A DNA stretch of 64,000 nt from assembly GCA_945868825.1 (NCBI GenBank), contig CAMBMM010000002.1:118252-182251 (forward strand). The letters are read 5' to 3'. The position numbers and the translations under genes were made by a program. Of the stretch, positions 4,171 to 27,584 are shown piece by piece. The stretch's first letter is position 1. Each line of letters opens with the position of its first letter. The DNA is from Sphingobacterium thalpophilum. GTDB taxonomy: Bacteria; Bacteroidota; Bacteroidia; Sphingobacteriales; Sphingobacteriaceae. The notes beneath the pieces are model-generated. The model saw only the letters and a list, made by a program, of their open reading frames with translations. It made no database searches and was not told the DNA's origin.

Positions 4171-4178
4171 TACTTTTG
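4171..4178 (+). promoter_or_regulatory. Candidate -7 promoter element upstream of pnuC
   Basis: TACTTTTG is an exact match to the Bacteroidota -7 consensus TAnnTTTG. A TTG lies at 4153-4155, but with a spacer of only 15 bases. Initiation here would give a transcript that enters the 4201-4234 hairpin within about 20 bases. Confidence 0.35.
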
Positions 4179-4200
4179 TTAGTTACAATTTGGTTGGTCA

Positions 4201-4234
4201 AAAATCCCCTTGATGAAAATCGAGGGGATTTTTA
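4201..4234 (+). terminator. Terminator-like hairpin in the pnuC leader
   Basis: The arms 4201-4211 (AAAAATCCCCT) and 4224-4234 (AGGGGATTTTT) are perfect inverted repeats of 11 base pairs around a 12-base loop, and the right arm ends in a T-run. It lies between divergent genes, so it does not end either neighbour. It therefore either attenuates pnuC or ends an unseen small RNA. Confidence 0.5.
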
Positions 4235-22159: not shown

Positions 22160-22186
22160 AAGCCACTCTAAAAGAGTGGCTTTTTT
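22160..22186. terminator. Terminator after the TlpA-like gene
   Basis: Arms 22160-22169 and 22173-22182 (AAGCCACTCT with AGAGTGGCTT) form a ten-base-pair stem with a three-base loop, followed by a T-run to 22186. It lies between convergent genes. Confidence 0.85.
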
Positions 22187-22532
22187 ACTGCTTTTTCTCG
22201 GGCTTAAACCAATTGAATATAATTTTTAAGAGGCCCAACACGATAGCAAACCAAGCGGCAGAAATAAAACCGACGGTATGAAAACCACTTACAAAAGCAT
22301 CTACCAACAATACCATGCAAACTGTAATGATAAACGATACCAAGCCAAGCGTTAAAAAGTTAAGCGGAATAGTAAGTATGTGAAGTACAAAACCAATGGT
22401 TGCATTAACCAAGGCTAATAATAATGCTACCCAAAGAGCCGTTACAAACGAATCTACACTTACACCCGGTAAAATATAAGCTGCTAGTAATACAGCAATA
22501 CCACTCAATAAAATCTCTAAAAGCGTTTTCAT
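22185..22532 (-). CDS. Small four-TM membrane protein of the phage holin IV / UPF (DUF360-like) family
   Basis: This 115-residue protein has four hydrophobic helices and matches the so-called phage holin family 4 (mycobacterial 4TMS) proteins: an N-terminal AAYILPGVSVDSFVTALWVALLLALVNATIG segment and a central LTIPLNFLTLGL motif, the family hallmark. There is no lysis cassette or phage gene nearby, so a housekeeping membrane role is likelier than lysis. I start at the ATG at 22532; an open frame reaching 22871 merely mirrors the divergent lipoprotein gene. It lies 22 bases from that gene's start. Confidence 0.85.
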   Translation of the reverse strand: MKTLLEILLSGIAVLLAAYILPGVSVDSFVTALWVALLLALVNATIGFVLHILTIPLNFLTLGLVSFIITVCMVLLVDAFVSGFHTVGFISAAWFAIVLGLLKIIFNWFKPEKKQ

Positions 22533-22554: not shown

Positions 22555-22986
22555 ATGAGAAAATTATTAGCACATAGCCTACTGGTTTGCTGTTTTGGTA
22601 TTTTGGCCTGCACACCCACTAAACAATCTAACGAATTAGACTTAGCAATTAGCCTTTCGGCAGATAAAAAAAGTGTGTTGGTAAAAAATATCCCAGCAGA
22701 CTTACTCTCTAGCATAAAAAAAGATAGCCTGCAATTGGTGGCATTTTTTGCCTTATACCCTACTAGTAACGATCCAGACATGCAGGGTTTAGAATCGCCT
22801 ATTCCTGGAAACTTTTCGGAGCAACACGAAGTACTTGTATTTACACCTATTAGCCAACTCAGTAAAGGCACAACTTATCGAGCCGAAATTTATGCACAAA
22901 GTCGAGAATTTTCAGTCATCAGTTTACTACAAAAACAAGAAAAATTGGGAGGAAATAACCCTATTACCTACACATTTACCTTTTAG
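22555..22986 (+). CDS. Small lipoprotein of unknown function
   Basis: The 143-residue protein has a clear lipoprotein signal peptide (GILAC, Cys19) and a beta-rich remainder ending in the aromatic-alternating ITYTFTF. No family is recognised. The LDLAISLSADKKSVLVKNIP segment and the later VFTPISQLSKGTTYRAEIYA segment suggest an immunoglobulin-like or fibronectin-like fold, but that is only an impression from strand patterning. It precedes the rimP promoter and is otherwise isolated. Confidence 0.75.
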   Translation: MRKLLAHSLLVCCFGILACTPTKQSNELDLAISLSADKKSVLVKNIPADLLSSIKKDSLQLVAFFALYPTSNDPDMQGLESPIPGNFSEQHEVLVFTPISQLSKGTTYRAEIYAQSREFSVISLLQKQEKLGGNNPITYTFTF

Positions 22987-22990
22987 TTGC

Positions 22991-23020
22991 TTGTAAAAAC
23001 AATTATTTGTACTATATTTG
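22991..23020 (+). promoter_or_regulatory. Promoter of the rimP-nusA-infB operon
   Basis: TTG at 22991-22993 and TATATTTG at 23013-23020 are separated by 19 bases. This matches both halves of the Bacteroidota housekeeping promoter (TTG at -33, TAnnTTTG at -7). Transcription would start near 23025, just before the leader hairpin. Confidence 0.65.
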
Positions 23021-23029
23021 TATCGAATT

Positions 23030-23056
23030 AAAGAGGGGACGGTGTCCCCTCTTTTT
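23030..23056 (+). terminator. Terminator-like leader hairpin upstream of rimP
   Basis: Arms 23030-23040 (AAAGAGGGGAC) and 23044-23054 (GTCCCCTCTTT) pair over 11 bases with a three-base loop and a T-run to 23056. It sits between the operon promoter and the rimP ATG at 23077, which makes it a transcription attenuator candidate. Confidence 0.6.
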
Positions 23057-23076: not shown

Positions 23077-23541
23077 ATGAAGGTAGAACAACGCATACTA
23101 GCTCTGGTAGCCGAAAAAATAGCCGACAGACCCGATTTATTCTTGGTAGAAGCAAAAATGCACGCCAATGGTAAATTGATGATTCTGATAGATGGCGACA
23201 AAGGCGTTGCCATACAAGATTGCGTTGCTATTAGCCGCCATGTAGGTTTTCATTTGGAAGAAGAAAATTTGGTGGATACCGCTTATACACTAGAAGTATC
23301 GTCGCCGGGAGTAGACTTTCCCTTAACCTTGCTAAGACAATACGCTAAAAACGTAGGTCGTAACCTAAGTGTTAAGTTTAAAGACGGCAACAAAACAGAA
23401 GGAAAATTGGCCGAAGTACAAGAAGGTCACATTCTTTTGCAAGAACTGAAAAAAGAAAAGGGCAAAAAAGCCCAAACCGTTGATAGGCTAATCCCTCTCA
23501 ATGAAATAACAGAAAGTAAAGTTTTAATTTCATTTAAATAA
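23077..23541 (+). CDS. rimP: Ribosome maturation factor RimP
   Basis: RimP binds the 30S subunit during late assembly. The 154-residue protein shows the two-domain layout of the family: an N-terminal alpha/beta domain with the DGDKGVAIQDCVAISRHV segment (about residues 39-56) and LEVSSPGVDFPL (about residues 77-88), then an SH3-like C-terminal domain (GNKTEGKLAEVQEGHI). It is the first gene of the conserved rimP-nusA-infB operon; nusA starts one base after its stop codon. Expression may be limited by the leader hairpin. Confidence 0.95.
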   Translation: MKVEQRILALVAEKIADRPDLFLVEAKMHANGKLMILIDGDKGVAIQDCVAISRHVGFHLEEENLVDTAYTLEVSSPGVDFPLTLLRQYAKNVGRNLSVKFKDGNKTEGKLAEVQEGHILLQELKKEKGKKAQTVDRLIPLNEITESKVLISFK

Positions 23542-23542
23542 A

Positions 23543-24781
23543 ATGAGCAACATTAATTTAATTGATTCCTTCCAGGAATTTAAAGATTTCAAAAATATCG
23601 ACCGTCCAACGGTGATCAGTGTATTAGAAGAAGTGTTTCGTAGCATGTTGCGCAAACGTTTCGGAACCGACGAAAATTGCGACGTAATTGTGAACCCCGA
23701 TAACGGAGATTTGGAAATTTGGCGTACCCGTATGGTTATGGAAGATGGCTTTTCTGAAGATGACGATTTAGAAATTGAATTGGCTGAGGTTAAAAAACTT
23801 GACCCAGACATGGAAGTTGGCGATGAATTCATCGAACAAATTACCTTAGAAAGTTTTGGTCGTAGAGCTATTTTAGCTGCCCGCCAAACCTTAGTTTCTA
23901 AAGTATTGGAATTAGAAAAAGATGAGATATTCAAAAAATACAAAGATCGCGTAGGCGAAATTGTAAGCGGCGAAGTTTACCAAGTTTGGAAAAAAGAAAC
24001 CTTGGTATTAGACGATGAAGGAAACGAATTGTTGTTGCCTAAAACCGAACAAATTCCAGCTGACTTTTACAAAAAAGGCGACTCGGTACGTGCGGTAATT
24101 AAGGAAGTAGAAATGGTAAACGCCAGCCCGAAAATTATTATTTCTCGTACTGCACCAGAATTTTTACAACGTTTGTTCGAAATGGAAGTACCGGAAATTT
24201 TCGACGGGTTAATTACCATCAAAAATATTGTACGCGAACCAGGCGAACGTGCCAAAGTAGCCGTAGAATCGTACGACGATCGTATCGATCCTGTTGGTGC
24301 ATGTGTAGGCATGAAAGGCTCTCGTATCCATGGCATTGTACGTGAATTGAAAAACGAAAATATCGACGTAATTAACTACACCAACAACTTATCTTTATTT
24401 ATTACACGTGCTCTAAGCCCAGCGAAAATTACCAGTATTAAATTAGACGATGTTGATAAAAAAGCAGCCGTGTACTTAAAGCCAGATCAGGTATCATTGG
24501 CTATTGGCCGTGGTGGACATAACATTAAACTAGCCGGAAAATTAACGGGTTACGAAATTGATGTATACCGCGAAAATGCCGATGAAGATGAAGAAGATGT
24601 AGATTTAGAAGAATTTGCAGATGAAATTGACGGTTGGATTATTGACGAATTAAAGCGTGTTGGTTTAGATACTGCAAAATCGGTATTAGCGCTAAACGCA
24701 GAAGAATTGGTAAAACGTACCGATTTAGAAGAAACTACTGTAGAAGAAGTATTAGGAGTTTTACGTGCCGAATTTGAATAA
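23543..24781 (+). CDS. nusA: Transcription termination/antitermination factor NusA
   Basis: NusA binds RNA polymerase and nascent RNA and modulates pausing, termination and antitermination. The 412-residue protein has the N-terminal polymerase-binding domain, an S1 domain (about residues 135-200, GEIVSGEVYQVW), and two KH domains, with the GMKGSRIHGIVRELKNENIDVI and AIGRGGHNIKLA motifs. It is shorter than E. coli NusA (495) because the C-terminal acidic repeats are reduced to one short helix-hairpin-helix-like tail. Position directly after rimP and 82 bases before infB is the universal order. It could feed back on the hairpin in its own leader. Confidence 0.97.
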   Translation: MSNINLIDSFQEFKDFKNIDRPTVISVLEEVFRSMLRKRFGTDENCDVIVNPDNGDLEIWRTRMVMEDGFSEDDDLEIELAEVKKLDPDMEVGDEFIEQITLESFGRRAILAARQTLVSKVLELEKDEIFKKYKDRVGEIVSGEVYQVWKKETLVLDDEGNELLLPKTEQIPADFYKKGDSVRAVIKEVEMVNASPKIIISRTAPEFLQRLFEMEVPEIFDGLITIKNIVREPGERAKVAVESYDDRIDPVGACVGMKGSRIHGIVRELKNENIDVINYTNNLSLFITRALSPAKITSIKLDDVDKKAAVYLKPDQVSLAIGRGGHNIKLAGKLTGYEIDVYRENADEDEEDVDLEEFADEIDGWIIDELKRVGLDTAKSVLALNAEELVKRTDLEETTVEEVLGVLRAEFE

Positions 24782-24863: not shown

Positions 24864-27584
24864 ATGTCAGAAGGTAAAAACATCAACTTACTAAAAGCCG
24901 CCAAGGAACTAAACATTGGTTTATCTACCGCTGCCGAGTTTTTAAGCAAAAAAGGCTTTGCTGTAGAAGCAAAACCTATGTTTAAACTCGAAGGAGCTAT
25001 GTATGATGCCTTATTGAAGGAATTTCAGGGCGATAAAATTGTGAAAGAAGAGGCCAAGCAACTTGCTATAGACAAAATTCGCAAAGAGGAAGTAACCGAA
25101 CCTGTACTAAAACCTGCACCGAAACGTCCGGATATTTTTGAACAAGAGGAAATTCTGATTAAAAACACCGGTTCATTTACGCAACCAGAAAAACCAAAAG
25201 AAGTAATTGCAAAAGCAGACGAAAGTAAGGGAGTTAAAATAGTTGGTAAAATTGATTTAGATGACTTAAAACCAAAAGCTAAAGCCGAAGAAAAAGCACC
25301 AATAGAAACCCCTAAAATAGAAGAAAAAGTGGTAGAGCCCGTTGTAGAAACACCTGCAACTCCTCCTGAAACTTCAATTGATGAGGTGGTAAGAGCCCGT
25401 GCGGGCAAATTAAGCGGACCAAACGTAGTAGGTAAAATTGATTTACCACAAGCACGTAAAGCCAATCCAGTGGCTTCATCTAATGCCGCTGCCGACCAAA
25501 AGCGTAAGCGTAAGCGTACCGCCTTTACCCCAGGCCAGGGGCAACCGGGGGGAGCAGCGGGCGCTAATACCAATCGTCCGGCACCAGGTAATCGTCCGGC
25601 ACCAGGTGGCCGCCCAGATTTTAGAAATAATAGGCCCAATAATACACCCTCTGCTCCAAAAGGAGAGCCTACAGAAAAAGAAATACAAGATCAAATTAAG
25701 GCAACACTTGCCCGTTTAAGCGGAGCAGGTAAATCCGGGAAATTTGCTCAACGTGCTAAATTACGTCGCCAAAAACGCGATGATGTAGCCCTATCTGCCG
25801 AAGAGGCAGCCATAGAGAAAGAACTTCAATCCAAGGTTTTAAAGGTTACCGAGTTTGTTACCGCAAACGAATTGGCCAATATGATGGATGTGCCCGTAAC
25901 CCAAATCATTTCTACTTGTATGACCTTGGGCTTATTCGTATCTATTAACCAACGTTTAGATGCCGAAACATTAAGCATTGTAGCCGATGAATTTGGTTTT
26001 GAAGTAGAATTTGTAAAACCAGAAGACGAAGAAAACTCTACACTAGAGGAAATAGATACTCCGGAAGAATTAAAAGATCGAGCGCCTATTGTTACGGTAA
26101 TGGGTCACGTAGATCATGGTAAAACCTCCCTGCTCGATTTTGTACGGAAAACCAACGTAATTGCTGGTGAAGCCGGAGGTATTACCCAACATATTGGTGC
26201 CTACGAGGTAACCTTAGACAACGAACGTAAAATTACTTTCTTAGATACACCGGGTCACGAAGCCTTTACGGCCATGCGTGCTCGTGGTGCCAAAGTAACC
26301 GATATTGCCATTATTGTAATTGCGGCTGATGATAGTGTGATGCCTCAAACCAAAGAAGCTATTAACCACGCTCAAGCTGCTAACGTACCTATTGTATTTG
26401 CATTTAGTAAAGTAGATAAACCGGGTGCCAATGCTGATAAAATTCGCGAACAATTATCAACCATGAATATTTTGGTAGAAGATTGGGGTGGTAAATATCA
26501 AAGTCAAGAAATTTCGGGTAAAACCGGCCTAGGTATTGATGCTTTATTAGAAAAAGTATTATTAGAAGCCGATTTATTAGAACTAAAAGCCAACGCAAAC
26601 AAGCGGGCAACTGGAACTGTAATTGAAGCTGCTTTAGATAAAGGTCGTGGTATTGTAACCACAGTTTTAATACAAGCCGGAACACTAAAAGTGGGTGACC
26701 CTATTTTAGCGGGTTGCTACAGCGGTCGTGTAAAAGCCTTAACTAATGAACGTGGCCAAAAAATAGAACAAGCCGGACCAAGTACCCCGGTACAAGTATT
26801 GGGTATGCAAGGTGCACCAACTGCGGGCGATAAGTTTAACTCGATGGAAAGTGAAGTAGAAGCCCGCGAAATTGCTACCAAGCGTATGCAATTGCAACGT
26901 GAGCAAGGCTTACGCAGCCAGAAACACATCACACTGGATGAAATTGGCCGTCGTTTAGCCATTGGCAACTTTAAAGAATTGAACATTATTGTTAAGGGTG
27001 ATGTGGATGGTTCTATCGAAGCCTTATCCGATTCATTATTAAAATTATCTACCGAAGAAATTCAGGTAAACATCATCCACAAATCGGTGGGTCAAATCTC
27101 CGAATCGGATGTATTGTTGGCTTCGGCTTCCGATGCCATTATTATTGGTTTCCAGGTACGACCGTCGCAAGGTGCACGTAAATTGGCCGAGCAAGAGCAA
27201 ATAGACATCCGTTTATATTCTATTATTTACGATGCCATTAACGAAGTAAAAGCCGCCATGGAAGGCATGCTTGCCCCTGAGTTTGAAGAAAAAATTACTG
27301 CGAATGTTGAAATTCGTGAGGTATTCAAAATCAGCAAAGTGGGAACTATTGCCGGCTGTATGGTATTGGATGGTAAAATTACCCGTAACTCGAAAGTGCG
27401 TATTATTCGCGATGGCGTAGTAATTTATGCCGGTGAATTAGCTTCCTTGAAACGCTTTAAAGAAGATGTAAAAGAGGTGGCTACCAACTACGAGTGTGGA
27501 TTAAACATTCAAAATTTTAACAACATTGAGGTAGGCGATATTGTAGAAGCATACGAACAGGTGGAAGTGAAACGGAAACTTTAA
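24864..27584 (+). CDS. infB: Translation initiation factor IF-2
   Basis: IF-2 is the GTPase that brings initiator tRNA to the 30S subunit and promotes subunit joining. The 906-residue protein has an N-terminal IF2_N-type helical domain, a long low-complexity linker (about residues 90-300, rich in Lys, Glu, Pro and Asn), a second IF2_N domain near 320, and the G domain. G1 is GHVDHGKT and G3 is DTPGHEAF. The G4 motif reads SKVD, with Ser515 where Asn is usual. Domains II to IV follow normally and the C-terminus is complete. An 18-base tandem duplication lies in the linker. A terminator ends the operon. Confidence 0.97.
25572..25607 (+). repeat. Two tandem 18-base repeats inside infB
   Basis: Two perfect, adjacent copies (25572-25589 and 25590-25607) of the unit AATCGTCCGGCACCAGGT encode two copies of NRPAPG in the flexible linker of IF-2. 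The exact identity suggests a recent slippage duplication. Confidence 0.9.

Follow-up and report, generated by a model that had tools for sequence, protein, structure and literature searches.

The locus described here raises the question of why a hairpin followed by a run of T lies between a predicted promoter and rimP-nusA-infB, an operon that itself encodes a termination factor, and, if the hairpin acts as an attenuator, what sets its read-through. A preliminary description of this DNA had put forward an attenuator with autoregulation by NusA. In the text below the window is the whole stretch of DNA analysed, 64,000 nucleotides in length, from an assembly of 1.66 Mb in 4 contigs. Among the best 80 of 290 RimP matches, the closest named relatives are MAGs titled Sphingobacteriaceae or Sphingobacteriales (98% and 71% identity; Bacteroidota), followed mostly by Mucilaginibacter and Pedobacter.

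The operon and its promoter region

Pfam matches to RimP, NusA and IF-2 bear out the earlier assignment of the operon as rimP-nusA-infB (Table 1), in which a single base separates the rimP stop codon from the start of nusA. The order rimP then nusA was found in 52 of the 53 loci searched; in the exception the sequence stops 95 bases past rimP. The gene preceding rimP is without a Pfam match and ends 43 bases 5' of the stem. Divergent from it, at about 22185-22530 of the window, is a minus-strand gene whose product appears to be a small, phage-holin-like membrane protein.

Table 1. Features of the rimP region, in positions of the window
Feature	Position	Strand	Basis or remark
Gene upstream of rimP	22555-22986	same as rimP	probable lipoprotein by eye
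TTG of the -33 element	22991-22993	+	read from sequence; 19 bases 5' of the -7 box
-7 box TATATTTG (TAnnTTTG consensus)	23013-23020	+	sequence reading
Predicted transcription start region and leader 5' end	23024-23029	+	usual -7 box spacing
11-bp hairpin AAAGAGGGGAC / loop GGT / GTCCCCTCTTT	23030-23054	+	sequence, folding, comparison
T-run, predicted premature termination site	23052-23056	+	sequence and terminator scan
rimP	23077-23541	+	start codon ATG at 23077; Pfam RimP_N and RimP C-terminal domain
nusA	23543-24781	+	Pfam NusA_N, S1, KH_5
infB	24864-27584	+	Pfam IF2_N, GTP_EFTU, IF-2

Bacteroidota promoters have a -33/-7 consensus, and it is on this basis that the TTG is called a -33 element; the start region was predicted from the usual distance between a -7 box and the transcription start. 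Direct reading of the window confirmed the arrangement originally described before rimP, in which the -33/-7 promoter is followed after about ten bases by an 11-bp hairpin and a T-run, the gap between the -7 box and the stem being exactly 9 bases. The stem is perfect and the loop has three bases. From predicted start to predicted stop the RNA would be ~33 nt, and the whole predicted leader ~50 nt.

Folding of the 36-nt leader gave -17.5 kcal/mol (z -5.2) and that of a 77-nt stretch -20.9 kcal/mol (z -3.0), with equal stability in none of 200 shuffles in either case. In a terminator scan over 19 kb the rimP hairpin ranks top among 17 terminator-like sites; as 18.7 sites were expected by chance, the scan alone is no proof, and it is comparison that decides. 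The window contains 78 TAnnTTTG boxes, counting both strands, of which four have a hairpin with a T-rich tail within 70 bases downstream. Only the box before rimP combines such a hairpin and tail with a downstream ORF of at least 80 amino acids, in a scan that overlooks hairpins whose stem absorbs the T-run, such as that at pnuC.

Conservation of the hairpin before rimP

Searches for RimP succeeded in 58 of the 60 relatives examined and in 108 of 119 class genomes, which combine to 141 different genomes with the window's own included. The upstream DNA of 130 of these was scanned and the remaining 11 were read by eye. A hairpin with GGG opposite CCC lies 5' of rimP in 115 of the 130 class genomes scanned, versus 0.7% of 2,600 dinucleotide shuffles. 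Among the 15 scan misses, the printed sequences of ten (L027, L036, L037, L043, L104, L107, L115, L117, L122 and L124) carry a hairpin that falls outside the rule because its G-run contains a G-T pair or a mismatch, its loop is long or its sequence is a different one, while no hairpin is seen by eye in the other five (L101, L119, L128, L130 and L133). Of the genomes outside the scan, ten have a hairpin and L175 has none. By eye, some such hairpin precedes rimP in 135 of the 141 class genomes, although it should be emphasized that these counts are over related genomes and do not represent independent events. The comparison with other Bacteroidota rimP leaders is clear in that the hairpin is kept, the reverse of the lack of conservation that the preliminary description had considered possible.

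A generic terminator scan detected a site before rimP in 35 of 37 cases in the family (1.1% of shuffles), in 80 of 97 in the rest of the class (0.5%) and, for the phylum's other classes, in 22 of 31 (1.0%). Eight of the nine misses in other classes have a terminator by eye (long loop, mismatch or short stem), and L156 has none. The GGG/CCC hairpin is likewise present in 76 of the 80 named loci that derive from the best 80 of 290 matches, a sample that overlaps in species with the others; in the remaining four, of which three are Daejeonella records and one is titled Pedobacter schmidteae, the C-rich arm comes first, for example AAGAGCCCCGACATTATCGGGGCTCTTTTTTT.

A laxer scan of the 130 sequences returned 120 hairpins, including a spurious one (L128). 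In 118 of these hairpins the G-run is preceded at a distance of 9-33 bases by a TAnnTTTG box, and in 111 at least six T occur in the ten bases after the C-run. The T-run is poor (five or fewer T of ten) in nine, comprising the spurious L128 and eight with an intact stem, and this was counted against an attenuator.

The exact stem pattern GAGGGGAC-N3..8-GTCCCCTC is found in 18 of 37 genomes, one copy in each and always within 100 bases 5' of rimP; the reversed-pattern control is found in none of the 37. Our own structure model of the hairpin, R1, was run over whole genomes in a scan that scores ~56 candidates per genome; of 119 genomes, 37 had matches at E <= 0.001. Several of these matches are away from rimP and many rimP hairpins are not among them, and it was because the scan was both mixed and incomplete that the rimP upstream regions were fetched directly. 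At E <= 0.001 the genome to which the window belongs has a single R1 match, the rimP site. Some genomes of other families (G049, G052 and G128) have similar hairpins away from rimP, at which R1 scores well, and this was also counted against an attenuator. Over 97 class loci outside the family R1 gave 106 matches at E <= 0.1, on both strands.

Terminator shape appears to be conserved rather than stem sequence

Alignment A2 and model R1 comprise 31 of the 37 family loci, the near-duplicates L004, L006, L035 and L037 and the misfits L021 and L027 being excluded; alignment A1 comprises 45 of 50 loci (L004, L006, L035, L037 and L043 excluded). In the family alignment 98.5% of pair cells are paired and double changes occur at 4 of the 11 pairs, and on none of five measures did any of 500 shuffles reach the level of the alignment. 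The double-change count on its own, however, says little, because slid controls show as many (4 pairs and 5 cells at a slide of -3, and 3 pairs and 6 cells at -2, versus 4 and 4 for the structure itself). The share of paired cells and the covariation score are above those of every slide, at 98.5% versus 52-76% and 0.168 versus 0.06-0.10, respectively. Pair swaps such as A-T/C-G/T-A and C-G/T-A/G-C are seen among 116 hairpins in register (the spurious L128 was excluded from the pair table), a set chosen by a scan that demands pairing, so that pairing is partly built in.

Turnover of the whole stem, as read from these leaders, provides stronger evidence than changes at single pairs and is their most informative feature. 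In Daejeonella the stem is inverted and the T-run kept, as in GAGCCCCGA..TCGGGGCTC, while other classes have stems such as GTGGGG/CCCCAC, CGCCC/GGGCG and AGCCCG/CGGGCT, again promoter-proximal and with the T-run kept. Terminator shape, rather than stem sequence, appears to be what is conserved, and the persistence of this shape while the stem sequence turns over favours termination itself over a sequence-specific RNA binder. Recurrence before rimP and whole-stem turnover together lend the candidate attenuator good comparative support.

Families without the hairpin

Six of the 141 class genomes are without an evident hairpin, five of them in families f43 and f51 and the sixth being G062; G168, which is outside the class, is also without one. 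All three sampled genomes of f43 (L170-L172) have the -7 box a few bases from the rimP start and are almost leaderless, and both sampled genomes of f51 have a short leader without a hairpin. To judge from their leaders, these two families have lost the element, and they constitute ready comparisons. NusA is strongly diverged in L170-L172, with 40-41% identity to that of the window. Identities of 40-47% were observed in 6 of 16 loci, five without the hairpin and one (L178) with it, and L174 (genome G062) combines an absent hairpin with a NusA identity of 65%; as 5 of the 16 loci were picked for seeming to lack the hairpin, no coupling between NusA and the hairpin is deduced from this comparison. 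The rimP match of G062 has an internal stop, and the rimP start may be misplaced there.

Relation to known rimP leaders

Of the attenuators surveyed by Naville and Gautheret 2010 (PMC2965389), the rimP-leader is given as the most ubiquitous. Their main text reports it in Firmicutes and Gammaproteobacteria, with a GGGc/gCCC stem, without a visible antiterminator in the general form and with NusA named as the best candidate regulator, and contains no word beginning with Bacteroid-. Similar to the rimP-leader, the element described here is a single intrinsic terminator directly 5' of rimP-nusA-infB, with a G-rich 5' arm, a C-rich 3' arm and a T-run, and neither an antiterminator nor a larger conserved structure is present in the window. 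Of the GGGc(...)gCCC motif, the window and 115 of the 130 genomes scanned have GGG opposite CCC, most often within GGGGAC/GTCCCC; Daejeonella and other classes have an inverted or different stem. In contrast to the rimP-leader, the usual core, GGGGAC/GTCCCC, lies right at the predicted transcript start, and other clades invert or replace the stem. The E. coli rimP leader TGGGCTTTAGGCCCTTTTTTT resembles some Bacteroidia forms, such as AAAAGGGCTCTTTAAGGCCCTTTTTT in L127. Four loci, L116, L121 and L127 of family f14 together with L107, have GGGCT..GGCCC or GGGCC..GGCCC and a T-run, and are closer to the E. coli leader than to the usual Bacteroidia form.

In B. subtilis NusA stimulates termination in its leader and so keeps down its own expression (Mondal 2016, as related in the review PMC12288461), and E. 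coli NusA is reported to repress its own operon (as cited in the main text of PMC2965389). The Bacteroidota element resembles the B. subtilis leader in being an intrinsic terminator within the 5' leader of a nusA operon, a likeness seen here from sequence alone, whereas the NusA dependence of the B. subtilis leader has been experimentally tested; the latter is also longer, at 180 nt according to the main text of PMC2965389 versus the ~50 nt predicted here. In Flavobacterium psychrophilum a 2021 study reported that rimP has a structured 5' region which is transcribed, is conserved in Flavobacteriaceae and has no Rfam match (PMC9723704). This is likely to be the same hairpin, the passage concerned giving neither sequence nor mechanism.

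Judging by its family name, Rfam RF01770 (rimP) occupies the same genomic place. It gave no match above its gathering cut-off in the window, in 20 loci or in 60 genomes (0/60), and the weak matches seen in 58 of the 60 genomes at E up to 1 are uninformative, none being above the cut-off. An Rfam search of the window returned no family above cut-off; the best match of the element at relaxed E, sraA, scored 27.4 bits versus a cut-off of 56 and 23.8 bits on the opposite strand, and was taken as a chance match to a palindrome. The main texts of two B. thetaiotaomicron transcriptome papers do not mention rimP or nusA, and in the open-licence literature no Bacteroidota rimP attenuator was found beyond the rimP-leader, B. 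subtilis and Flavobacteriaceae reports. On these comparisons we regard the Bacteroidota element, which was followed through the phylum, as a new clade of the known rimP-leader kind. The range of a leader that is known but has received little study is thereby widened to Bacteroidota and related classes, in which the Rfam models tested do not recognise it.

A candidate mechanism and its alternatives

We consider it likely that the promoter-proximal intrinsic terminator is an attenuator of rimP-nusA-infB, most probably set by a polymerase-bound factor for which NusA is the best candidate; both termination at the hairpin and its setting by NusA are what we infer from the leaders compared. Polymerase would start a few bases 5' of the stem, and the hairpin and U-tract would be complete after ~33 nt, at which point some polymerases would release a tiny RNA and the remainder would continue into rimP. 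In the window the 9 bases between box and stem are too few for an antiterminator, aptamer or leader peptide, and neither a sensor structure nor a short ORF, as a riboswitch, T-box or leader-peptide system would have, can be placed 5' of the terminator. Given this lack of room, it is most likely a polymerase-bound factor that determines how many polymerases read through. NusA suggests itself because it is encoded by the operon, is reported to repress its own operon in E. coli and acts on leader termination in B. subtilis, precedents that make autoregulation plausible. A rise in NusA would increase termination and lower operon mRNA, resulting in negative feedback. Suboptimal terminator stems are described in the literature as the kind assisted by NusA; the window stem is strong and not of this kind, which was counted against NusA dependence, and it could act without NusA. 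The shortness of the predicted RNA and the free exchange of stems would offer a clean natural test of NusA feedback through a bare intrinsic terminator.

The stop signal lies close to the earliest point at which a hairpin can form, and for this reason the element may be conceived as a minimal attenuator of polymerase state, in which read-through would show whether, just after promoter escape, sigma has already given way to NusA. Such a phylum-wide sensor of NusA loading, with a stem that can be freely swapped or inverted, is a tentative and rather doubtful proposal. It could be argued, alternatively, that the terminator is constitutive and only partial, with a fixed read-through that balances a strong promoter and senses neither NusA nor anything else. 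The strong stem and T-run of the window are consistent with this view, as are the 9-base interval, which makes an antiterminator impossible, and the loss of the hairpin in two families. Conservation before an operon that encodes a termination factor, however, argues for regulation, and NusA feedback is on record in the E. coli and B. subtilis reports; we thus consider an unregulated terminator unlikely. That the hairpin instead protects the mRNA 5' end, or is bound by a translational repressor (RimP, IF2 or a ribosomal protein), with an incidental T-run, is suggested by the genomes in which an intact stem has a poor T-run (for example L049, L051, L109 and L111) and by the recurrent GGGGAC/GTCCCC stem, which resembles a recognition sequence. 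This is decidedly improbable, as the T-run is kept where the stem is inverted (Daejeonella) or unrelated (other classes), and is T-rich in the 111 of 120 hairpins noted above.

The gene preceding rimP is on the same strand and ends close to the stem, and the hairpin could in the window additionally end upstream transcripts. As an account of the element, an ordinary terminator of that gene is nevertheless very unlikely, as the -7 box sits between gene and hairpin and the hairpin stays with rimP in L040, L043, L045 and L048, where the nearest upstream ORF, not confirmed as a gene, is long and on the opposite strand. These four loci, of which L043 and L045 have diverged rimP hairpins, largely contradict the reading. 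Promoter, hairpin and T-run are also the anatomy of a short sRNA, but an RNA of ~33 nt that is almost entirely hairpin, and whose conserved attribute is its position before rimP, makes it close to inconceivable that an independent small RNA gene merely happens to precede the operon.

The hairpin upstream of pnuC

The proposal that the same plan recurs at pnuC in the window was not upheld. A box (TACTTTTG, at 4171) and a 15-bp hairpin (4200-4233, with a GAAA loop and the CCCC arm first) do lie upstream of pnuC (PF04973), yet the geometry differs, the hairpin being 144 bases 5' of the ORF start, and among 12 pnuC loci from related genomes L187 alone shares it. Unrelated hairpins that follow an upstream gene are present at the pnuC loci L188-L190 and L192-L195, and in L188, L192, L194 and L195 a TAnnTTTG box is located downstream of the hairpin. 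In L196 and L197 a second pnuC copy is preceded by CTGAGAT..ACCTGATxCGGATAATGCCGxCGTAGGGA, which resembles a TPP riboswitch.
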